Source: Candidatus Acidiferrales bacterium
GTDB taxonomy: Bacteria; Bacteroidota; Ignavibacteria; Kryptoniales; JAKASW01
DNA: 64,000 nucleotides
Assembly (NCBI GenBank): GCA_035515795.1
Contig: DATJAY010000023.1
Coordinates: 1 to 64,000, forward strand
Reading direction: 5' to 3'
The notes under the pieces are model-generated. The model was not told where the DNA came from and ran no database searches. It saw only the letters and a program-made list of their open reading frames with translations. This document shows positions 36,755 to 46,853 of this stretch, in pieces (the stretch's first letter is position 1; each line of letters starts with the position of its first letter). The position numbers and the translations under genes are program-made.

Positions 36755-38209
36755 CTAAAAGATTTCCGCACCGACAGTTTTTAACAATGACGAACCCGGC
36801 GACCAATTCTCTCCATTCTTCTCGCGGTTTCTAAAAAAATTCACAACATCACCGACCACAATCAATCCTGGCAGGCTCTCTTGCATGTCCTCAATCTTCT
36901 CCTCAATATTCTTCAGCCTTCCGACGATAACTTTTTCCCCGGTCGTAGTCCCCCCGAAAACAACAGCGATCGGCCTGGAAGACGGGAGACCGTTCCGGAT
37001 AAGTTGATCGACAATCAGCCCTAACTTTTTCACGCCCATGTAGACAACAATTGTGTCAGCATGCATCAAGTTTTTCCAATCGATATCTTTTTGATCGGTT
37101 CCAGGATCTTCCCTGCTGGAGGCAGATCCAGCTCCCGCGGAATGGCCAGTTACAAAGACGACGCTTGATGCTTCTTTCCTATGTGTCAACGGGATTCCGA
37201 GAGATGTAGGGATGCCGATTCCCGAAGTTATTCCAGGAACGATTTCAACCTCAATTCCAGCGTCCCGCAAGTGCTCAAGTTCTTCGCCTCCACGTCCGAA
37301 AATAAAAGGGTCACCGCCTTTTAATCTGACGACACGCCTGCCCGCAAGTGCTTTGCAGATCAGGAGCTCGTTGATTTTTTCTTGCTTCATGCAGTGTTCG
37401 CCTGCCCTCTTACCGACAAATATCTTCTCCGCAGACTCAGGTACTTCAGCAAGGAGGTCAGCATTTATCAGAGCATCGTATAACACAACATCTGCCTGTT
37501 GAAGAACTCTGAGACCCTTAACAGTGATAAGTTCAGGATCACCAGGACCTGCACCAACAAGATAAACTTTGCCGGGATCCTTAAGATTTCGAGTCACTTC
37601 TCCTGTCTCATCCTTCTTGATTCCTTTCTCATGCTCCATCCTATCCAATTCACTTCGCACAATTTGTTCGCGAACTTTTTTGCGGCTCTCGAAATCGGAA
37701 AAAGCGTTCTGTACCTCTGGACGTAACTCACCAAGTCGCTCCAGCAAATCGGGATACCCCGAAGAGAATTTACCTTCGATTTTGTCTCGAATAATTTTGC
37801 CCAGCGTAGGGCTCTTTCCGTTTGTCGAAACTGCGATCTTCAAATCGCCTCTCTGAAAAACTGACGAAAGATAAAAAGTGCAAAGCTCAGGAACATCGAC
37901 AATGTTTGCAGGAATTCCGCGTGCCTGTGCTTCATTGAAAATTCTATCTTGAACTTCGCGGTCGTCGGTCGCTCCAATTACAAGGGAATACCCTTCAAGG
38001 TCGCCATCTTCATACTCCCGGCGATGCAAAACAATTTTCTTATCCTCAGAAAGTTCCTCTATCCATGAGGAAACTTCTGGAGCAATTACAGTGATGTCGG
38101 CCCTAGCTTCGAGTATGCCCTTGATTTTCTGCTCCGCAACTTTTCCTCCACCGATTACAACTACCGGTCGGCGCTCTACTTTTAAAAATATCGGATATAA
38201 TCTGTTCAT
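36755..38209 (-). CDS. cysG: Siroheme synthase (CysG-like: precorrin-2 dehydrogenase/ferrochelatase + SUMT)
   Basis: A 484-residue fusion. Residues 1-150 are a Met8p-like NAD-dependent precorrin-2 dehydrogenase/ferrochelatase (RPVVVIGGGKVAEQKIKG; STNGKSPTLGKIIRDKIE). About 213-460 is uroporphyrinogen-III C-methyltransferase (VYLVGAGPGDPELITVKGLR; RLKGGDPFIFGRGGEE; PGITSGIGIPTSLGIPLTHR). It makes siroheme for the sulfite reductase that opens the operon. A charged linker joins the two halves. It begins 39 bp after the sat/cysC stop. Confidence 0.93.
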   Translation of the reverse strand: MNRLYPIFLKVERRPVVVIGGGKVAEQKIKGILEARADITVIAPEVSSWIEELSEDKKIVLHRREYEDGDLEGYSLVIGATDDREVQDRIFNEAQARGIPANIVDVPELCTFYLSSVFQRGDLKIAVSTNGKSPTLGKIIRDKIEGKFSSGYPDLLERLGELRPEVQNAFSDFESRKKVREQIVRSELDRMEHEKGIKKDETGEVTRNLKDPGKVYLVGAGPGDPELITVKGLRVLQQADVVLYDALINADLLAEVPESAEKIFVGKRAGEHCMKQEKINELLICKALAGRRVVRLKGGDPFIFGRGGEELEHLRDAGIEVEIVPGITSGIGIPTSLGIPLTHRKEASSVVFVTGHSAGAGSASSREDPGTDQKDIDWKNLMHADTIVVYMGVKKLGLIVDQLIRNGLPSSRPIAVVFGGTTTGEKVIVGRLKNIEEKIEDMQESLPGLIVVGDVVNFFRNREKNGENWSPGSSLLKTVGAEIF

Positions 38210-38247
38210 GTTTCTTTATATCTGTTCCAACTTATCGTTCACTTTGT

Positions 38248-40086
38248 TCAGCAACAGCCAGAAACCTTGCGATTACTTTTTGAATAGTGTTCTCTCAATA
38301 TATCCACTACTTCTGGCCGCGAAAATTCCCTCGGTAAATCCTGGGTGCTACTCAACCGCTCACGTACTTTTGTGCCGCTGAGGATAATCCGTTCGTCGGC
38401 TCCATGCGGACACGTTTTCTCAGATGCCATCCCTTCACACTTATTGCAATAGAAGGTGTGCTCAAATTTCAGAGGAGTAATTCCTAGTTCATCCTTTGAG
38501 TACCTGTCGAATATCTTCTGCGCATCATATGTACCATAATAATTCCCGACTCCTGCGTGATCTCTGCCGACAATGAAGTGCGTGCATCCATAATTCTGTC
38601 GAATTATCGCGTGATGAATTGCCTCTCTTGGTCCGGCATAACGCATTGCCGCCGGCATAACTGAAAGAAGCACACGGTCCTGTGGATAATAATTTCCCAG
38701 CAGGGTCTTATAGCATTCCATGCGAACTCCCGCAGGTATATCGTCGCCTTTCGTTTCGCCGACGAGCGGATGGAGAAGAAGCCCGTCGACCATTTCAAGA
38801 GCAACCTTCTGTAAATATTCGTGCGCACGGTGGATGGGATTGCGGGTTTGAAAAGCAACCACGCTCTTCCAGCCTCGCTCCCTAAAGTAATGTCGGGTTT
38901 CAGTTGGCGTGAGGCGATATTCGGGGAAATCACGATGTGCCTCTAATCTGACAACGTCGATCGATCCGGCGAGGGCCGTATCTCCTTCATCAAACAGATT
39001 TTTTACACCTGGATGTTTCGTATCGGTCGTCTGCCAGACCATCCGCGCGAGCTCTTCTTTATTCACTTTGAAAATTTCACTGAGCTGAAGGATCGCGATA
39101 TTTTTTCCGTCATTGTCTCGAAGAACCACCTGATCGGAGACCTTTAAACGGTCGGCTTCTTCATCTTCGACAAGAAGGAGAATTGGGATAGTCCATGCGA
39201 GGCCGTTTGTCAGTCGACCGTTTTCTATGATGTTTCTATAGTTGCCTTCACCAATAAAGCCGGTCAACGGAGAATATGCCCCGCTTGCAATTAGCTCGAT
39301 GTCCGACCATTGACGTGCGCTGAGAGTGACTGAAGGATATTTTTCAATCCGGTCGATGACTTCATTCCTTTTATTTTCCGGGAGGAACCGGTTAACCAGC
39401 GTACCGCCGTGAGGAGCAATTGTCGAATAATCTTCGTTCCCATTCGTATCCTCAAAACGTGAAGTCGCAACTGTTTCATGAAGCCGTCCGGTCCTCTGCA
39501 ATTGTTCGATCACCTTCTCTTCCTCTTGTTCCGAGAGATTTGTGTCTCCGACCGGCAGCAGACCGAGGAGCTCAAGCGCGCGGAGAAGCTTATTCACACT
39601 GATGTCAATTGTTTCTTTGTCAGTCTCAAGAATAACTTCAGGCGCAAGCGGCTGCTCGTAAGGATCCGAGACACCTGTAAAATTTTTTATTTCGCCGGCG
39701 ATCGCTTTCTTATAGAGCCCCTTGACATCACGCTGGACAAGAGTCTCCATCGGCGCTGAGACAAAAACTTCGATGAAGTCCTTTATCTGAGAACGGACAT
39801 GATCCCTGATCTCCCTATATGGAGATATGGCCGCAGCGATTGCAATGGCTCCGTTACGGGACAGAAGCTCGCAGACAAATCCGATCCGCAAAATATTTAT
39901 ATCGCGGTCTTCCTTACTAAATCCTAGACCTTTGCTCAGATGAGTGCGGACGACATCACCATCTAGAACTTCAATCTTCGCTTCTCCCCGCTCTTCCAAT
40001 TTCTTGACGAGCCCGGCAGCTATCGTTGATTTTCCAACTCCGGAAAGACCGGTAAACCATATCGTGAATCCTTCGTGCTTGGGCAT
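38248..40086 (-). CDS. Bifunctional APS kinase / ATP sulfurylase
   Basis: A 612-residue fusion with the kinase first. Residues 1-180 are APS kinase: P-loop GLSGVGKST (13-21), LDGDVVRTHLSKGLGFSKEDRD, ISPYREIRD. About 220-612 is ATP sulfurylase: SPLTGFIGEGNY and the catalytic QTRNPIHRAH (413-422), then GRDHAGVGNYYGTYDAQ and Cys-containing YCNKCEGMASEKTCPHG. It activates sulfate to APS and then PAPS. The kinase-first order is that of animal PAPS synthase; Aquifex-type fusions have the reverse. Start is well supported (AAGGAAG). Confidence 0.94.
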   Translation of the reverse strand: MPKHEGFTIWFTGLSGVGKSTIAAGLVKKLEERGEAKIEVLDGDVVRTHLSKGLGFSKEDRDINILRIGFVCELLSRNGAIAIAAAISPYREIRDHVRSQIKDFIEVFVSAPMETLVQRDVKGLYKKAIAGEIKNFTGVSDPYEQPLAPEVILETDKETIDISVNKLLRALELLGLLPVGDTNLSEQEEEKVIEQLQRTGRLHETVATSRFEDTNGNEDYSTIAPHGGTLVNRFLPENKRNEVIDRIEKYPSVTLSARQWSDIELIASGAYSPLTGFIGEGNYRNIIENGRLTNGLAWTIPILLLVEDEEADRLKVSDQVVLRDNDGKNIAILQLSEIFKVNKEELARMVWQTTDTKHPGVKNLFDEGDTALAGSIDVVRLEAHRDFPEYRLTPTETRHYFRERGWKSVVAFQTRNPIHRAHEYLQKVALEMVDGLLLHPLVGETKGDDIPAGVRMECYKTLLGNYYPQDRVLLSVMPAAMRYAGPREAIHHAIIRQNYGCTHFIVGRDHAGVGNYYGTYDAQKIFDRYSKDELGITPLKFEHTFYCNKCEGMASEKTCPHGADERIILSGTKVRERLSSTQDLPREFSRPEVVDILREHYSKSNRKVSGCC

Positions 40087-40147
40087 ATTACTTCCTTATG
40101 TAATTAGTAGGCTCCTTAAGAATCTTACCTTTCAAAAATCTTATAAT

Positions 40148-41062
40148 TCACCCGAACAATCCTTCAACCGACAGATAGCGTTCGCCGGTATCGTAGTCGA
40201 AAGTCAGAACTGTACTACCTTCTGGGATTTCCGGAAGTTTCTTGGCGACAGCAGCGAGTGCCGCACCGGTAGAGATACCTACAAAAATTCCTTCTTCCTT
40301 TGCAGCCCGCACGGTGAATTCGAACGACTCTTCTTTGGTCACCAGCACAACTCCATCAAGGATCTTCACGTTCAGGTTTTTTGGAATAAAACCCGCGCCG
40401 ATTCCCTGAAGGGGATGCGGGCTCGGTGAGCCTCCGCTGATAACGGGAGACAATGCCGGTTCAACTGCAAAAACTTTGAGCTTCGGAAACTTTTTCTTCA
40501 AGACGTTTGCGCAGCCGGTGATATGTCCTCCGGTTCCCACACCGGTGATCAGATAATCTATGCCGTCTGGAAAATCACTGATAATTTCCTGAGCAGTCGT
40601 CCGCTCATGCGCTTCGATGTTGGAGGGATTCTCAAACTGCTGCGGTATCCAGGCATTTTGCGTTTTGGAGGCAAGCTCGTTTGCTCTGTCAATTGCACCC
40701 TTCATGCCTTTTTCGCGCGGAGTCAGTTCGAGAGTCGCTCCATATGCAGTCAGAATTCGTCTTCGTTCAACAGACATCGATTCCGGCATAACGAGAATAA
40801 GTTTATACCCCTTAACCGCAGCCACCATCGCGAGTCCGATCCCCGTATTGCCGGATGTGGGTTCGATGATCACACTATCCTTTTTTAAGATCCCGCGGCG
40901 TTCCGCATCATCGATCATGGAAAGTGCAATGCGGTCTTTTATGCTCCCGCCCGGATTTGCTCGCTCGAGTTTTATCCAGACGTTCACCTTGGAAGGAAAT
41001 AACCTGTTGATTTTCAAATGAGGCGTGTTGCCTATCGTTTCGAGTATAGAATTAACTTTCAT
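40148..41062 (-). CDS. cysK: O-acetylserine sulfhydrylase (cysteine synthase A)
   Basis: A 304-residue Cys[16 protein letters not shown] (PLP Lys 42), [30 protein letters not shown], and a C-terminal [16 protein letters not shown]. It joins sulfide to O-acetylserine made by the CysE encoded 60 bp upstream. The ribosome site AAGGGAG is strong. This is the second cysteine-forming enzyme of the same operon besides the CysM-like one. Confidence 0.96.
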
Positions 41063-41121
41063 GAGAAATGCTCCCTTTTATTTTAGCGGAAAAATGAATC
41101 GAGTTATGATATCCCGTGATC

Positions 41122-41982
41122 TTATATGACAAAGTCGATACCTCCATTCGTCTCGTTCGGAGTCCGCACATTTACCTTCGTCTCGGTGTACACAAACGAA
41201 AACGGCGGTACACTGCGAGTCAGCCACGAATTGCCTCCGACGACGCTGTCATGTCCGATTGTTGTGTCGCCGCCGAGTATTACAGCTTGGGCGTAAATTA
41301 TCACATTGTTTTCAATTGTCGGATGGCGCTTTGTATTTGCAAGCGATTTGTCCACACTCAACGCGCCGAGAGTAACGCCCTGATAAATTTTCACATTGTC
41401 GCCGATGACCGTTGTCTCACCTACAACGATTCCCGTACCATGATCGATAAAAAATGGAGTGCCGACTCGCGCCCCAGGATGGATATCGATTCCGGTAAGC
41501 TGGTGAGCATATTCGGTCAGCAAGCGTGGGAAAATAGGCACGTCAAGCAGGTAGAATTCATGGGCGATACGGTAAATGGCGATCGCAAGCAATCCCGGAT
41601 ATGCGAGGACCACTTCTTCAACGCTCTCTGCTGCGGGATCGCCGCGATAAATCGCCTCAGCGTCGAGCCAGAGCTTGTTATGAATTTCCGGAAGCCGTGA
41701 GAAAAACGCACCGACAATCTCATCAACTGAATCACCCGGTTTGTGCGGCAGCGAATGCAAAATCGCTTTGGCATTGCGCTGAAGCAAAACTAATTTCGCC
41801 TGTATTTCTTCGGGCGAAAAGTAAACTTGTTCAGAGAGAGTTGGGAATAGACACTCAATAATTTCATCCGCGAACCGACGGGTCTCCGCCTTGATTGGCA
41901 AAGTTAATCCATGCGGCTCATGCTTTTGAAACAGCGTTTCCGCCAGCGTCAGTAATTCTCCGTCCGATTGAATTGTTTTCAT
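41122..41982 (-). CDS. cysE: Serine O-acetyltransferase
   Basis: A 286-residue left-handed beta-helix acetyltransferase: an alpha-helical N-terminal domain, then GIDIHPGARVGTPFFIDHGTGIVVGETTVIGDNVKIYQGVTLGA (by parts) with the catalytic Asp/His region, and a tail with hexapeptide repeats ending in a hydrophobic segment. It makes O-acetylserine for CysK. The tail usually docks into CysK; here it ends GGIDFVI, with the terminal Ile that CysK-binding tails need. It is separated from the exporter gene by 150 bp. Confidence 0.94.
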   Translation of the reverse strand: MKTIQSDGELLTLAETLFQKHEPHGLTLPIKAETRRFADEIIECLFPTLSEQVYFSPEEIQAKLVLLQRNAKAILHSLPHKPGDSVDEIVGAFFSRLPEIHNKLWLDAEAIYRGDPAAESVEEVVLAYPGLLAIAIYRIAHEFYLLDVPIFPRLLTEYAHQLTGIDIHPGARVGTPFFIDHGTGIVVGETTVIGDNVKIYQGVTLGALSVDKSLANTKRHPTIENNVIIYAQAVILGGDTTIGHDSVVGGNSWLTRSVPPFSFVYTETKVNVRTPNETNGGIDFVI

Positions 41983-42131
41983 CTTAGTGACTTTCGTAGT
42001 TGGTAGGAAATTGATTGATTAATTTTATATGGAATGGCCTGGGCGTCGATGAGGGAATGCAGGCTCTTATTTATCGCCTTTATCAATCTAAGAAATACTA
42101 TACCAAACTGCGACATCTTGTTTATCATGGG

Positions 42132-42896
42132 TTACAAAAGTTTTATTCCCGACACCACTAACATTGAGCCGAGGATTATTTCAGTCGCTCTCTTCGGGAA
42201 CGAGACGCTTAACCTGCTTCCGAGAATTGCTCCGGGAACCGAGCCAATCAACAGATTAAGGAGCAGATTAAAATTGACAGTCCCATTCGCAAGGTGTCCT
42301 GCGCCGGCGACTGCAGTGAGGATCGCACCATGGAACACGTCAATTCCGACGACCTGTGAAACCGGGATCGCATAAGTTGCAAGCAGGAACGGAACAAAGA
42401 TGCTTCCGCTCCCCACAGATGTTATAGAAACTGCAAAACCGATCCCAAAACTGACGGCTCTTATTCCGAAGACTCTCCTTCGGACGTCGGGCGAAGATTT
42501 GAATTTATCTGCAAGCTTCCAAATCGGCGGGTAAAACAACCCGACGGAAACGACGATGAGAATAGCACCAAGAGAATGCGTAATGAATGAGTCAATCGAG
42601 AAAGGATGGAAATATGAAATAAGCCTGAGGAAAATGAATCCAACGATTGCGCCGGGCAAACTGCCGGATAACAGTGTGCCCGTTATTTTGAAGTTAACAT
42701 TTTTCAAACGGACGTGGGTAATGGCTCCAGCGATTTTTGTCAAGGCACTCAGGACAAGATCGGTTCCGACCGCGAAGACGGGTTGCACTCTGAATATGAA
42801 AATCATTATCGGTGTGATAAGGCTTCCGCCTCCCATTCCGGTAAGGCCAATCATCGTTCCGACAAAAAATCCCGCTGCAATAATTTCCCAGGACAT
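42132..42896 (-). CDS. TauE/SafE-family sulfite/sulfonate exporter-like membrane protein
   Basis: A 254-residue polytopic protein of about eight helices with the family's GFFVGTMIGLTGMGGGSLITPIMIF opening (by parts) and the matching second-half repeat VSITSVGSGSIFVPFLLATYAIPVSQVVGID. The start at 42896 overlaps the cysH stop by one base (TGATG), giving tight coupling; a longer in-frame start would add a basic stretch inside cysH and is unlikely. In this operon it most likely moves sulfite, sulfate or another sulfur anion, direction unknown. Confidence 0.87.
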   Translation of the reverse strand: MSWEIIAAGFFVGTMIGLTGMGGGSLITPIMIFIFRVQPVFAVGTDLVLSALTKIAGAITHVRLKNVNFKITGTLLSGSLPGAIVGFIFLRLISYFHPFSIDSFITHSLGAILIVVSVGLFYPPIWKLADKFKSSPDVRRRVFGIRAVSFGIGFAVSITSVGSGSIFVPFLLATYAIPVSQVVGIDVFHGAILTAVAGAGHLANGTVNFNLLLNLLIGSVPGAILGSRLSVSFPKRATEIILGSMLVVSGIKLL

Positions 42897-43627
42897 CAAG
42901 CGTTCGGCCTTTCTTCCCGGTTTTGGGGATCGATAACGTGCAGTCCGCATTCTTTCTTTTGAAATCCGCGCCATCTTCCGGCGCGATCGTCTTCACCCGC
43001 GGCAACCGGCGTCGTGCAGTGAGTGCAGCCAATACTTGCGTATCCTGAATCATAAAGCGGATTATACGGCACTTCGTGATCCACAATATATTTCCAGACT
43101 TCCTTTTTAGTCCAGCCGGCAAGAGGATTTATTTTTAACAAATTGAACCTCTTGTCCCATTCAACTAATCCCGCATTCGAGCGACCCGGGGATTGCTCGC
43201 GCCTGACAGCAGTAATCCAGCCGAAATAATTTTTCAGAGCCTCACGAAGCGGTTCCACTTTCCTGATATTGCAGCAAAGATCCGGATTGCTTTCCCATAG
43301 ATTTGCACCATGAAGTTTTGCCTGCTGCTCCAGTGAAATCGGAGTTGCATAACGTATCAATCTGATTCCGTATTTCTCCTCGAGCCTGTCACGAAGCACA
43401 TAAGTTTCAGGGAATAAAACATCCGTGTCCAAATAGAAAATCGGGATTCCTTTGTTCACTGATGCAATCATGTCAACGATGACCACACCTTCTGCACCGA
43501 ATCCGGTAGCCATCGCAATGTCGCCGATCCGGAAATTAGTACTGACCCATTCCAGCACTTTAGCCGGATGTGCGGGCTCGAATTGTTTATTCAACAAACT
43601 AATTTCTTCTTGATTCAAATTTACCAT
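42896..43627 (-). CDS. cysH: Adenylylsulfate (APS) reductase, iron-sulfur type
   Basis: A 243-residue reductase with all the iron-sulfur landmarks: DLCCNIRKVEPL (Cys 118-119), GCTHC (Cys 201, 204) binding the 4Fe-4S cluster, and the catalytic KKECGLH (Cys 227). This is the APS-reducing (assimilatory, bacterial/plant-like) class rather than the cluster-less PAPS reductase. It yields sulfite for the sulfite reductase at the head of the operon, with thioredoxin as reductant. Ribosome site AAGGAA. A perfect 13-bp hairpin precedes it. Confidence 0.95.
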   Translation of the reverse strand: MVNLNQEEISLLNKQFEPAHPAKVLEWVSTNFRIGDIAMATGFGAEGVVIVDMIASVNKGIPIFYLDTDVLFPETYVLRDRLEEKYGIRLIRYATPISLEQQAKLHGANLWESNPDLCCNIRKVEPLREALKNYFGWITAVRREQSPGRSNAGLVEWDKRFNLLKINPLAGWTKKEVWKYIVDHEVPYNPLYDSGYASIGCTHCTTPVAAGEDDRAGRWRGFQKKECGLHVIDPQNREERPNA

Positions 43628-43641
43628 AATTTCCTTATCGA

Positions 43642-43670
43642 TTGAGACTCACTCTCCGAGTGAGTCTCAA
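43642..43670. repeat. Perfect 13-bp inverted repeat with 3-base loop
   Basis: Arms TTGAGACTCACTC/GAGTGAGTCTCAA around a 3-base loop that reads GGA on the coding strand, in the short gap between the small-protein gene and cysH. There is no U-run, so it is more likely an RNA-processing or stabilising hairpin, or a dispersed palindromic repeat, than a terminator. Confidence 0.7.
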
Positions 43671-43682
43671 CCTATAATGTCT

Positions 43683-43940
43683 TTATACGTTCTGCACTCT
43701 TGTTGCCGAATATTCCAATCGTTCTTTTGCCTTGGCAACCGCCTTTGATTCTGCTTCGTCGCGTGTCGAGGCTTCGGCTCGCGCAATATTTGCTCCAGGA
43801 TCAACATTATCGACGGTGCAATAAAAAAGATCACCGAGTTTGTAGCTCACTATGTGCATCTTGAAAGACTTGATCGGTCCCTTCGGCAGAGGAACTTCCT
43901 CTGTTCTCTCGTGATACTCTTGCGGGGTCATCGTGTTCAT
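43683..43940 (-). CDS. Small protein of the cysteine operon, unknown function
   Basis: An 85-residue protein from the ATG at 43940, whose start overlaps the rhodanese stop by four bases (ATGA). It contains an N-terminal MTPQEYHERTEEVPLPKGPIKSF, a central beta-rich part (YKLGDLFYCTVDNVDPGANIARAEASTRDEAESKAVAKAKERL by parts) and a helical end. No cysteine-rich or metal motif apart from a single Cys. Its fixed place between rhodanese and APS reductase suggests an accessory role in sulfur transfer; I do not recognise a named family. Confidence 0.7.
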   Translation of the reverse strand: MNTMTPQEYHERTEEVPLPKGPIKSFKMHIVSYKLGDLFYCTVDNVDPGANIARAEASTRDEAESKAVAKAKERLEYSATRVQNV

Positions 43941-44797
43941 GCTCTTTCTCCACGCGCGATGGGCGCATTTACAAGATTTCCCCACTCCGTCCATGAACCA
44001 TCGTAGTTCTTGACGTTACTGTATCCGAGAAGATACCTGAGGACAAACCAGGTGAGGCTCGACCGTTCACCGATGCGGCAGTATGCAACTATATCTTTGT
44101 CGGGCTTGACTCCGAGCGGTTCATACAACGATCTGAGTTCAGCAACCGATTTGAATGTTCCATCTTCGTTCACGTTTTTTCCCCAGGGTACATTTACTGC
44201 CTTTGGGACATGACCGCCGCGCTGGCATGTTTCGGGCAATCCGGGAGGCGAAAGAACCTTTCCGGTGTATTCGTCGCCGGACCGCACGTCTACCAATGCG
44301 ACCTTCTTGCCATCGTCAACTGTCTTCAAGACGTCCTGAAGATAAGCTCTGATTGAAAAATCGGGTTCGGAAGCTTTATATGCCTTTTTCGGCACGTTCG
44401 GGATATCTCTTGTCAGCGGCTTTCCTTCCGCGACCCACTTCTTGCGACCGCCGTTTATCAACCGGACATCCTTGTGTCCATAAATTTTCAATTGCCAGAG
44501 CGCCCACGCGGCGAACCAGTTGTTGTTATCGCCGTAGAGCAAAACGACTGTATCGCTGTCGATTCCCGATTCGCTAAGGAGCTTCTCCAATTCCGATTTT
44601 GGAACGAGATCTCGCCTGACGTTGTCCGACAATTGAGTTTGCCAGTCCCAACCTACCGCGCCAGGAATATGGCCCTCGCCATAAGCTTTCGTATCTACAT
44701 CGACTTCGACTATTCTGACATTTGAATCCTCCTTGTGCTGGTCGGCCCATGCTGTGTCGACCAGAACTTCAGGATGTGCATATTTATCTTGTACCAT
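43937..44797 (-). CDS. Thiosulfate sulfurtransferase (two-domain rhodanese)
   Basis: A 286-residue tandem rhodanese. The N-terminal domain is inactive (Asp where the Cys would be: VVLLYGDNNNWFAAWALW). The C-terminal domain carries the active site CRIGERSS (Cys 240), the thiosulfate-type rather than mercaptopyruvate-type loop. It moves sulfane sulfur from thiosulfate to acceptors such as cyanide, thioredoxin or the CysO-MoeZ fusion. Ribosome site GGAGGAA is very strong. Second gene of the operon, overlapping the small-protein gene. Confidence 0.93.
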   Translation of the reverse strand: MVQDKYAHPEVLVDTAWADQHKEDSNVRIVEVDVDTKAYGEGHIPGAVGWDWQTQLSDNVRRDLVPKSELEKLLSESGIDSDTVVLLYGDNNNWFAAWALWQLKIYGHKDVRLINGGRKKWVAEGKPLTRDIPNVPKKAYKASEPDFSIRAYLQDVLKTVDDGKKVALVDVRSGDEYTGKVLSPPGLPETCQRGGHVPKAVNVPWGKNVNEDGTFKSVAELRSLYEPLGVKPDKDIVAYCRIGERSSLTWFVLRYLLGYSNVKNYDGSWTEWGNLVNAPIARGERA

Positions 44798-44847: not shown

Positions 44848-46614
44848 TCAGACCGCGCATTCACCTTCCCCTGTCACTGCGGCAAAAGCCTGTTTCTCTC
44901 CGAGATCAACAAACAGTTCCGCGTTTCGATTATCCACCCTGAAATCCGAGAGATCTTTGATGTCGTCGCGGTACGAACGGACTCCGACACGTTCCGTGAA
45001 CTGCCAGAAATTTTCGTCGGTGCTACGCTGGGAGATGAATCTCTTAATGATGCGTGAGACAGCTTCGACAGCATATCGAGCCGGTACTCTTCCCAGCGTA
45101 GCACCGAACGTTTGTTTGCCGGAGTTCATGCCTCCGCCAACAGAAATTAAGTACGAAGGAATTTCTCCGCCTTCGACTTTTTTTGTTGCGCCGTGCAACC
45201 CGATTGCTGCAACATGATGTTGACCGCATGAGTTCGGGCAACCGCTTATCTTTACACGAAAACCTTCCAACACTTCGGCCCAATCGGCGTTACGATGAAA
45301 TAGCTGAGTCAATTCCTTCCCTAGGGCGCGTGAATGAGTTATGCCGAGGTTGCAGGTATCTGCTCCCGGGCATGAAGTCACGTTTGAAGAATCAAGTGCG
45401 CCCGCTTGATTCAAACCTAAAGTTTTCAATTCCCGGTAAAGCGAATTCAAATCTGAAGACCTGATCCATCGTAGAACTATGTCCTGTTGCGGCGTGGTAC
45501 GAATTTTTCCGTTCGAAAAGCGCTGCGAGATCTCGCTCATTACAAACAGCTGATCCACCGTCAGATCACCTATCGTCGGGTTGATGTAAACCACATTATA
45601 ACCCGTCTGTTTCTGGCTGGCAACATTAGTGTCAAGCCAGTGATTAAACTCGACATCACCGTTTGTCTTAAGGATAAAATTTTCGTCGACGGGTAAATAT
45701 CCTGTTTCATTCTCCTCTTTGGGTTCGGGATATGTTCTGCCGGATACCATAATCTTCTCTCTTTCTTCAAGCACCCGGCGCTTGAAATCCTCGAATCCCA
45801 ACTTCCAAAGCACGTACTTCATTCGTGCTTTGTTTCTATTTTTTCGATCGCCGAATGCATTGAAGATCGTGAGGACGGCTTCCGTGGTCGGAATCAGGAG
45901 TTCGATCGGCAGAAATTCTTCGAACAAATCCGCAACTCGCGGTTGACCACCAAGTCCGCCCCCTATATAGACCTTGAAGCCCTTTCTCGTCTTACCGTCT
46001 TCGTCCTGAAGCGCAGCTACATATCCTATATCTTGTATCCACGGAATGATACCGTCACTCTCATCGATGCTCCCGGAAAAGGAGATTTTGAATTTCCTCG
46101 GAAGGAGTTGATTTAAATTATTTCGCAGTAGATGCTTTGCGAGGAGATGTGCATATGAAGTTATATCGAAAAGCTCCGATTTCGCTACGCCGGCCAAAGG
46201 TGCACCTATGATATTCCTGACAGTATTACCACATGCTTCACGTGTAGTGAGTCCAACCTCAGATAATTTCTCCATGACGTCGGGAACGGTCTCCAGTTTA
46301 ACCCAGTGAAACTGTATGTCCTGTCGCGTGGTGATGTGAGCGATCCCGTCGGAAAACTCGCGCGCTATCTCGCCCAGCCTTTTCAACTGCAGGGATGTCA
46401 GGAGTCCGAACGGGATCCTGACGCGGACCATGTTGAAACCCTCCTGGTCCGGCCGCTGACCGTATATCCCGCGGTGCAACCTGAATTTTTTGAATTCATC
46501 CTCGGATATCTCATTTTTTTTCAGACGACTCAATTCATTTCTGAATAGGCGTATATCCTCCGCATACGCTACCTGATTGTCAATGCTATATATTGATTCC
46601 TCGGTTTGCGACAT
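44848..46614 (-). CDS. Ferredoxin-type sulfite (nitrite) reductase
   Basis: A 588-residue siroheme/4Fe-4S reductase from the ATG at 46614; an upstream in-frame Met at 46677 would start inside the terminator hairpin and is rejected. Duplicated ferredoxin-like half-domains (about 50-130 and 315-400) flank siroheme motifs; the cluster ligands are in CPGADTC (Cys 415, 421) and GCPNSCG (Cys 459, 463). Context (CysH, siroheme synthase, cysteine synthases) favours sulfite over nitrite. It is the first structural gene after the Cys-rich leader and terminator. Confidence 0.92.
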   Translation of the reverse strand: MSQTEESIYSIDNQVAYAEDIRLFRNELSRLKKNEISEDEFKKFRLHRGIYGQRPDQEGFNMVRVRIPFGLLTSLQLKRLGEIAREFSDGIAHITTRQDIQFHWVKLETVPDVMEKLSEVGLTTREACGNTVRNIIGAPLAGVAKSELFDITSYAHLLAKHLLRNNLNQLLPRKFKISFSGSIDESDGIIPWIQDIGYVAALQDEDGKTRKGFKVYIGGGLGGQPRVADLFEEFLPIELLIPTTEAVLTIFNAFGDRKNRNKARMKYVLWKLGFEDFKRRVLEEREKIMVSGRTYPEPKEENETGYLPVDENFILKTNGDVEFNHWLDTNVASQKQTGYNVVYINPTIGDLTVDQLFVMSEISQRFSNGKIRTTPQQDIVLRWIRSSDLNSLYRELKTLGLNQAGALDSSNVTSCPGADTCNLGITHSRALGKELTQLFHRNADWAEVLEGFRVKISGCPNSCGQHHVAAIGLHGATKKVEGGEIPSYLISVGGGMNSGKQTFGATLGRVPARYAVEAVSRIIKRFISQRSTDENFWQFTERVGVRSYRDDIKDLSDFRVDNRNAELFVDLGEKQAFAAVTGEGECAV

Positions 46615-46643
46615 TATGTTCTCTTTCTCTCTGTATATAAAAA

Positions 46644-46674
46644 AAGCCCTTCGCTCGTTTTCAACGAAGGGCTT
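46644..46674 (-). terminator. Leader terminator (stems 3:4 of the cysteine attenuator)
   Basis: Perfect 10-bp arms AAGCCCTTCG/CGAAGGGCTT with an 11-base loop, followed by seven U (46639-46645), 30 bp upstream of the sulfite reductase start. Its 5' arm can pair instead with the end of the leader ORF. Confidence 0.9.
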
Positions 46675-46731
46675 CAAAAGTCAAATTGAGGTTAAATCAA
46701 CTCATGGGCCTACACCTTCGCGAAAACAACG
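46657..46731 (-). promoter_or_regulatory. Antiterminator of the cysteine attenuator (stems 2:3)
   Basis: On the coding strand CGAAGG (46720-46715) can pair with CCTTCG (46670-46665) in the 5' arm of the terminator, extended by GTTTT (46727-46723) with AAAAC (46661-46657) across a small internal loop. This is mutually exclusive with the terminator. The 5' half lies within the last codons of the leader peptide, so ribosome position decides which fold forms. Confidence 0.75.
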
Positions 46732-46815
46732 CGATCCCATCATACAGGTACAACAACAACATGCACACGCTGCACAGCGATTGTTTAACGTTGTCGAAGG
46801 TGTCTTACTATTCAT
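46702..46815 (-). CDS. Cysteine-rich leader peptide (37 aa) of the sulfur-assimilation operon
   Basis: ATG at 46815 to TGA at 46702-46704. The peptide has 8 Cys in 37 residues, in the stretch R-C-A-A-C-A-C-C-C-C-T-C and one more Cys later; every Cys codon is TGT, and four are consecutive. Ribosomes short of Cys-tRNA would stall in this cluster. The Cys codons lie in the loop between segment 1 (46789-46800) and segment 2 (46715-46731). A strong promoter is just upstream, which places the ATG close to the RNA 5' end, so it may be translated as a nearly leaderless message. It is a regulatory ORF; the peptide itself need have no function. Confidence 0.85.
   Translation of the reverse strand: MNSKTPSTTLNNRCAACACCCCTCMMGSRCFREGVGP
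46715..46800 (-). promoter_or_regulatory. Protector stem (1:2) of the cysteine attenuator
   Basis: Segment 1, CCTTCGACAACG (46800-46789), can pair with CGTTGT and CGAAGG of segment 2 (46731-46715) to give 12 base pairs with one 5-base bulge. When translation does not start, or the ribosome has left the RNA, this pairing would occupy segment 2 and let the terminator form. Confidence 0.7.
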
Positions 46816-46824
46816 CTCATTAAT

Positions 46825-46853
46825 AAGATACAAATACATAACTCTTTTGTCAA
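46825..46853 (-). promoter_or_regulatory. Promoter of the cysteine operon
   Basis: TTGACA (46848-46853), a 17-base spacer and TATCTT (46825-46830), followed by the Cys-rich leader. The metB promoter at 48411-48439 has the identical -35, -10 and spacing, and both have TTTG immediately before the -10. Confidence 0.8.

Follow-up and report, generated by a model that had tools for sequence, protein, structure and literature searches.

A predicted cysteine attenuator before a sulfate assimilation operon and a family of related leaders in an Ignavibacteria-type class

The 64-kb stretch of DNA analyzed here (the window) carries a nine-gene sulfate assimilation operon whose first gene is preceded by a short, cysteine-rich open reading frame (ORF) and an intrinsic terminator; this leader element and the operon are read from the minus strand. 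We confirmed that the element is more than a chance arrangement and that a previous sequence-only reading had observed it correctly and placed it accurately. From its sequence, it is very probably a ribosome-mediated transcription attenuator of the trp/his type, predicted to read the supply of Cys-tRNA and to control the whole sulfate-to-cysteine operon. Strong comparative evidence supports this mechanism, which the sequence-only reading had likewise proposed (co-conservation, compensatory changes, cognate pairing, and a class-wide codon match), and there are no expression data. A class-wide leader family is a larger finding than the window leader itself. The class likely uses a large family of attenuators (Cys; Met, often two in tandem; Cys plus Met; and Trp) for its sulfur amino acid and tryptophan metabolism, the Cys ones mostly with near-leaderless ORFs, and the Cys type before sulfite reductase likely extends to Acidobacteriota and Chloroflexota.

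Results

Layout of the leader element

In the 5'-to-3' order of the minus strand, the promoter is followed by the Cys ORF, its stop codon, the terminator, and the ATG of the first operon gene (Table 1). We read the product of this gene as an assimilatory sulfite reductase (SiR) because of the operon context; every NCBIfam sulfite or nitrite reductase model scored below its cut-off. The remainder of the operon lies at 36755..44797 (-) and includes a 103-aa ORF for which Pfam and NCBIfam gave zero matches.

Table 1. Features of the leader element and its neighboring genes in the window
Feature	Position	Strand	Remarks
Cystathionine gamma-synthase/OAH sulfhydrylase-like gene	48088-46898	-	Upstream of leader
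Promoter TTGACA-17-TATCTT	46825..46853	-	-35 TTGACA 46853-46848; 17-nt spacer; -10 TATCTT 46830-46825
Leader ORF, 37 codons	46702..46815	-	ATG 46815; stop 46704-46702; conserved at 10 other loci
Segment 1 (protector helix)	46788..46803	-	Partner is segment 2; cognate 1:2 test; unsupported in fixed columns
Regulatory Cys codons (codons 14-24)	46744..46776	-	Four consecutive TGT at 46761-46750
Segment 2, core TTTTCGCGAAGGTGT	about 46712..46732	-	RNA retained across frame change in L026/L027/L028/L030
Segment 3 (terminator 5' arm and loop)	46657..46675	-	CCTTCGTTGAAAAC pairs with segment 2
Segment 4 and T run of intrinsic terminator	46639..46654	-	
NirA-type sulfite/nitrite reductase	44848..46614	-	First operon gene
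Rhodanese	44797-43937	-	Second operon gene
103-aa ORF	43994-43683	-	Between rhodanese and cysH
cysH	43627-42896	-	
TauE/SafE exporter	42974-42132	-	
cysE	41982-41122	-	
cysK	41062-40148	-	
APS kinase-ATP sulfurylase	40086-38248	-	
Siroheme synthase cysG	38209-36755	-	

The leader peptide, MNSKTPSTTLNNRCAACACCCCTCMMGSRCFREGVGP, contains eight Cys residues, every one encoded by TGT and four of them in a row, as the sequence-only reading had described. That reading had also proposed three alternative pairings (1:2, 2:3, and 3:4), with the Cys codons lying between segments 1 and 2. We found each pairing and the same order of parts at the places given, although segments 1 and 2 had been drawn slightly short of the extents in Table 1. 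A terminator does precede SiR, but its distance from the SiR ATG (46614) is 28 bp and not 30 bp. The promoter, which had been called strong, is present and conserved in relatives but is a good hit, not an exceptional one. The terminator (46675-46643, minus strand) has 13 pairs, including A-U pairs, and then a T run. The antiterminator proved longer than had been proposed, with segment 2 (GTTTTCGCGAAGG) pairing with both the 5' arm and the loop of the terminator (CCTTCGTTGAAAAC). This 2:3 pairing and the 3:4 terminator are mutually exclusive, as an attenuator requires.

Several of these features exceed what chance would provide. The tetrapeptide CCCC occurs only once in all six frames of the window, in the leader ORF, and the leader's density of 7 Cys in 11 residues compares with a maximum of 4 to 5 in 20 Markov-simulated windows. 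The leader RNA folds as 1:2 plus 3:4 with a z score of -2.96 relative to shuffles, and the 2:3 duplex reaches -18.4 kcal/mol versus -10.9 +/- 2.5 for shuffles. Promoter-like sites are no more frequent in the window than expected (12 found versus 11.9). Cys codons make up 72 of 402 codons (18%) in the 11 leaders of the lineage described below, with a TGT:TGC ratio of 54:18; in the long ORFs of the window they make up 166 of 18,219 (0.9%), with a ratio of 56:110.

Conservation and covariation in the lineage

SiR orthologues with 65 to 73% identity provided 10 further distinct loci from nine genomes, with two copies in a single genome. The promoter, Cys-run ORF, segment 2, and terminator recur in the same order and spacing in 11/11 leaders, with a weaker -35 in L031. 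In the ten relatives, the ORF runs for 34 to 37 codons from a near ATG (38 in L023). The expectation that the Cys run and the terminator would be kept together in orthologous leaders was thus met throughout the lineage, and the case that would have refuted it, a terminator kept after loss of the Cys run, was absent from these 11 leaders and from the Acidobacteriota set. At four loci (L026, L027, L028, and L030), the frame after the Cys run differs (..SVSRRC.. versus ..CFREGVGP) while the RNA TTTCGCGAAGG is unchanged; because the frame changed and the RNA did not, it is the RNA and not the peptide that is conserved there.

The start codon lies 8 to 13 nt past the -10 box in all 11 lineage leaders (9 nt in the window). 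In Acidobacteriota, among the leaders for which a promoter was scored and the ATG is in frame, nearly all have that ATG 6 to 14 nt past the -10 box. Because such spacing puts the usual start site 0 to 7 nt before the ATG, we infer a leaderless or near-leaderless ORF, with a predicted 5' untranslated region of about 3 nt in the window; the start site is unmapped.

The proposed covariation of the segments was seen as compensatory changes in two of the three pairings. In fixed columns of the 11 leaders, 3:4 was 100% paired and 2:3 was 90% paired, with two compensatory pairs each; those in 2:3 are a U-A to C-G change in L032 and a C-G to U-A change in L031. Pairing 1:2 reached only 68% and was not above shuffles, because its site shifts between species, and segment 1 is the least conserved part of the leader. 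The 2:3 duplex has an energy of -15 to -19.5 kcal/mol in 11/11 leaders, with 0.2 to 3% of shuffles as good (12% in L032). In a column-free comparison of cognate and noncognate duplexes within the lineage, the permutation fraction was 0.0008 for 2:3 and 0.0004 for 1:2, versus 0.45 for the control pairing 1:3. Relatedness of the leaders lowers the effective number in this test but does not alone create a cognate advantage. Taken singly, the 1:2 pairings of L026 and L028 did not surpass those of shuffled sequences. All four segments have changed jointly in L031, with CCCTTCA/TGAAGGG/CCCTTCA/TGAAGGG for segments 1/2/3/4 versus CCTTCG/CGAAGG/CCTTCG/CGAAGG, and L032 pairs GTTCTC with GAGAAC where the window equivalent is GTTTTC with GAAAAC.

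Related leaders across the class

A covariance model built from the 11 leaders was searched in 391 genomes of the Ignavibacteria-type class, which brought up leaders with the same architecture in front of other genes; 60 hits were fetched. Leaders with Trp runs precede trpE in 6/6 cases, those with Cys runs precede cysE, cysH, or cysK in 11/14, and those with Met or Cys plus Met runs precede an OAH sulfhydrylase gene (metY) in 13/16. Of the 24 hits without a codon run, 20 were ordinary terminators before unrelated genes. The antisense control gave 1/60. The model was built on Cys leaders and their terminator, and the Met and Trp leaders entered largely via terminator and spacing; because these hits were not picked by their codons, the agreement of codon and pathway independently supports codon sensing.

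The cognate 2:3 test on 32 class-wide leaders was not equaled in any of 5,000 permutations (0/5000). In L282, CGGACGAGC pairs with GCTCGTCC in a wholly different stem, and in L248, GTTTGTGAAGGG pairs with CCCTTCACAAAC. In the Trp leaders, the assumed segment 2 paired no better than shuffles, and within the segment limits applied, we did not locate their antiterminator. When the class was scanned for the codon pattern TGYGCNTGYTGYTGY, repeats in other reading frames overwhelmed the result.

The individual hits are varied. Trp leader peptides (WAWWW and similar) with a clear terminator stand before trpE at L214, L216, L250, L254, L270, and L300. Before OAH sulfhydrylase, tandem leader-terminator units, both Met rich (e.g., TMAMRMMMRMK), occur at L248, L255, L274, and L296; to judge by their sequences, these look like serial methionine attenuators. 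Adjoining Cys and Met runs (MCCCCMMM and MCLCCMMM) before the same kind of gene at L258, L268, L269, L284, and L302 make dual sensing of both sulfur amino acids possible. Cys leaders head cysK, cysE, cysH, or rhodanese at L203, L206, L208, L212, and L246, a pattern suggesting that the element accompanies the leading gene of the pathway, whichever that is; the rhodanese with a Cys leader at its head corresponds to the second gene of the window operon. In L203, which is of the same genus, no SiR of the NirA type was found, and the Cys leader is present nonetheless. A very Met- and Cys-rich leader (MMMMNACMMPQMCCMMMCCYNPHRR) with a terminator precedes a peroxiredoxin-like gene in L273, and a Met/Cys-rich leader (MMMAMCMCM) lies some 330 nt before a gene for a sulfate-binding transport protein look-alike in L264.

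Sulfite reductase leaders in other phyla

Of 67 more distant SiR loci, 10 had a short Cys-rich ORF in the 400 nt upstream, versus 1 on the antisense strand, and an intrinsic terminator followed nearly all 10. In Acidobacteriota (the class of L068), a Cys leader was found at 19 of the 28 SiR loci with enough upstream sequence, L150 counted. A clear terminator, typically CCCACCGTCGG..CGGCGGTGGGTTTTTT, was present in 18/19 loci with a leader and 0/9 without one. The leaders end in CCGGCGTGTGG-like RNA, for which the terminator arm is a pairing partner; in the cognate 2:3 test, the permutation fraction was 0.0006. The Cys leader and terminator are set amid different flanking sequence, and a scan of the antisense strand of 34 loci of the Acidobacteriota set gave zero Cys-leader matches. 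The Anaerolineae case L087 has the same layout, in which GGGAGCTGTTCA can pair with TGAACAGTTCTCCC of the nearer terminator; for L163 and L164, also Anaerolineae, the automatic search scored the wrong terminator. We take these as independent cases in which putative Cys-type switches precede SiR in Acidobacteriota and Anaerolineae as well, with homology versus convergence undecided.

Proposed mechanism and alternatives

In the scheme that we propose, RNA polymerase would start about 3 nt upstream of the leader ATG, and a ribosome would load at the 5' end; both steps are inferred. With ample Cys-tRNA, the ribosome would pass the Cys codons to the stop (46704) and cover segment 2, whereupon 3:4 would pair and transcription would end near 46640. 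Under cysteine shortage, the ribosome would stall on the TGT run (46776-46744) with its leading edge short of segment 2; free segment 2 would then pair with segment 3 and the terminator loop (13 to 15 bp), the terminator would be blocked, and SiR and the genes behind it would be transcribed. With zero translation, 1:2 would form by default and termination would be favored. The transcription start, the stalling, the read-through, and the cysteine response are thus inferences, set on sequence elements, exclusive pairings, conservation, covariation, and a codon-pathway match that we observed.

The spacing of the parts agrees with such a scheme. The Cys run begins 27 to 34 nt before the segment 2 helix, a distance at which a stalled ribosome can leave segment 2 free; only 6 to 16 nt separate the downstream end of the helix from the last base of the stop codon, so that a ribosome that has reached the stop covers the helix. 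When the stalled state was folded at equilibrium, 3:4 was still preferred over 2:3, and therefore antitermination would depend on 2:3 being the first to form as the RNA is transcribed, which also holds for known attenuators. Against the attenuator model, segment 1 does not itself lie under a stalled ribosome, so that the prevention of 1:2 is less clear than in trpL. In the window, the Cys run is not part of segment 1 but follows it after about 20 nt. Because segment 1 is thus upstream of the stalled ribosome, its role is probably to favor termination when the leader is untranslated.

Three other explanations were weighed. The nascent Cys-rich peptide, and not the codons, could be the sensor, acting as a metal, redox, or arrest peptide that stalls the ribosome and uses the same RNA switch downstream. 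The peptide is unconserved outside its Cys codons, and its C-terminal part changes frame, which is hard to reconcile with such a role even though metals can be bound by Cys clusters, motifs such as CACCC are found repeatedly in different phyla, and nascent-chain copper sensors exist (PMC9973294). Moreover, in sister elements, whether Cys, Met, or Trp is repeated depends on the pathway of the gene that follows, as codon sensing would predict and metal binding would not, and the downstream genes are biosynthetic and not devoted to metal or redox defense. We therefore regard a peptide sensor as very unlikely.

Action on translation, in the manner of the mycobacterial leaderless poly-Cys ORFs, would fit an ORF that is likewise inferred to be near-leaderless. 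It leaves unexplained why 11/11 leaders conserve 3:4 as a strong intrinsic terminator followed by a T run, and that hairpin sits before the SiR ribosome-binding site and does not take it in; the likelihood of this explanation is remoter still. The hairpin could also be the ordinary terminator of the upstream gene, accompanied by a Cys-rich ORF that arose by chance. Since that gene ends (46898) about 220 nt before the hairpin, its transcripts may indeed end there too, but a promoter lies between the two, the Cys run and terminator co-occur in 11/11 lineage leaders and in Acidobacteriota with different flanks, and the Cys density is far above that of simulated windows. We consider this the least credible of the three.

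Discussion

The attenuator that we propose resembles the enterobacterial trpL, hisL, and leuL leaders in having a promoter, a run of codons for the product amino acid, four alternating segments, and a terminator before a biosynthetic operon. Unlike these, the window leader would sense cysteine, its ORF begins about 3 nt from the predicted start without a Shine-Dalgarno sequence, its segment 2 also pairs with the terminator loop, and its lineage is Ignavibacteria-type. Its regulatory codons lie between segments 1 and 2, whereas those of trpL lie inside segment 1; this layout, in a feature that varies and does not strictly define the kind, would still leave segment 2 free on stalling.

Two earlier predictions come closer in the amino acid sensed. 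The Rhodobacterales element uORFC-8-2 is a predicted Cys-codon upstream ORF followed by an intrinsic terminator before cysS (PMC8632094). It differs in having two tandem Cys codons and two stems, in preceding the gene for cysteinyl-tRNA synthetase, and in belonging to alphaproteobacteria; the window leader precedes the SiR operon and does not share the position before cysS. Cys leader peptides of Actinobacteria likewise have Cys-codon runs before cysteine operons, and the mycobacterial ORFs are leaderless, but no conserved terminator hairpins were found for these predicted peptides, whose action is thought to be translational or Rho dependent (PMC1262725). The mycobacterial leaderless poly-Cys ORFs reportedly act on translation (Canestrari 2020, cited in PMC13236596). 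A definition by translational control without an intrinsic terminator does not fit the window, where the terminator is strong.

According to an article of 2010, a newly found histidine case in Firmicutes was the only leader-peptide system known beyond Proteobacteria and Actinobacteria, and hardly any attenuators of Acidobacteria had been assigned a function (PMC2965389). A comparative attenuation survey by Lopatovskaya et al. (2010) is cited in PMC4833913. In the open-access literature on cysteine, methionine, and Bacteroidetes/Acidobacteria attenuators, we found the present elements undescribed; earlier predictions for Bacteroidota or for Met leaders are not excluded. The sequence-only reading had held a four-segment cysteine attenuator of this kind in the Ignavibacteria-type lineage to be undescribed as far as it knew. 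Within that literature, this stands for a four-segment Cys leader before sulfate assimilation; Cys attenuators with a terminator had already been predicted before cysS in Rhodobacterales (PMC8632094). The mechanism is thus of a known kind, and its Cys-specific, four-segment version before sulfate assimilation, together with its spread, is apparently undescribed.

If the prediction is right, the window holds a complete cysteine attenuator before sulfate assimilation, and the mechanism would extend to further phyla. The window leader also indicates how uncultured bacteria may control cysteine synthesis. With the set of Cys, Met, Cys plus Met, and Trp leaders, the effects of codon identity, leaderless starts, and segment layout on attenuation become testable.

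The SAM (S-box) riboswitch (RF00162) is similar in that a leader RNA controls sulfur genes, but it binds its metabolite directly and without a leader peptide. A search of Rfam with the leader of the window and the other loci tested gave no family match above the gathering score and detected only upstream SAM riboswitches. That of the window (80 bits) lies at 48377-48260 (-), before the gene at 48088-46898 and 1.4 kb upstream of the leader, with a promoter-like site at 48439-48411 and a terminator at 48237-48213. A methionine branch under SAM control thus adjoins a cysteine branch under the Cys leader, and the same pair of SAM riboswitch and Cys leader is found in L023, L024, L029, and L030.
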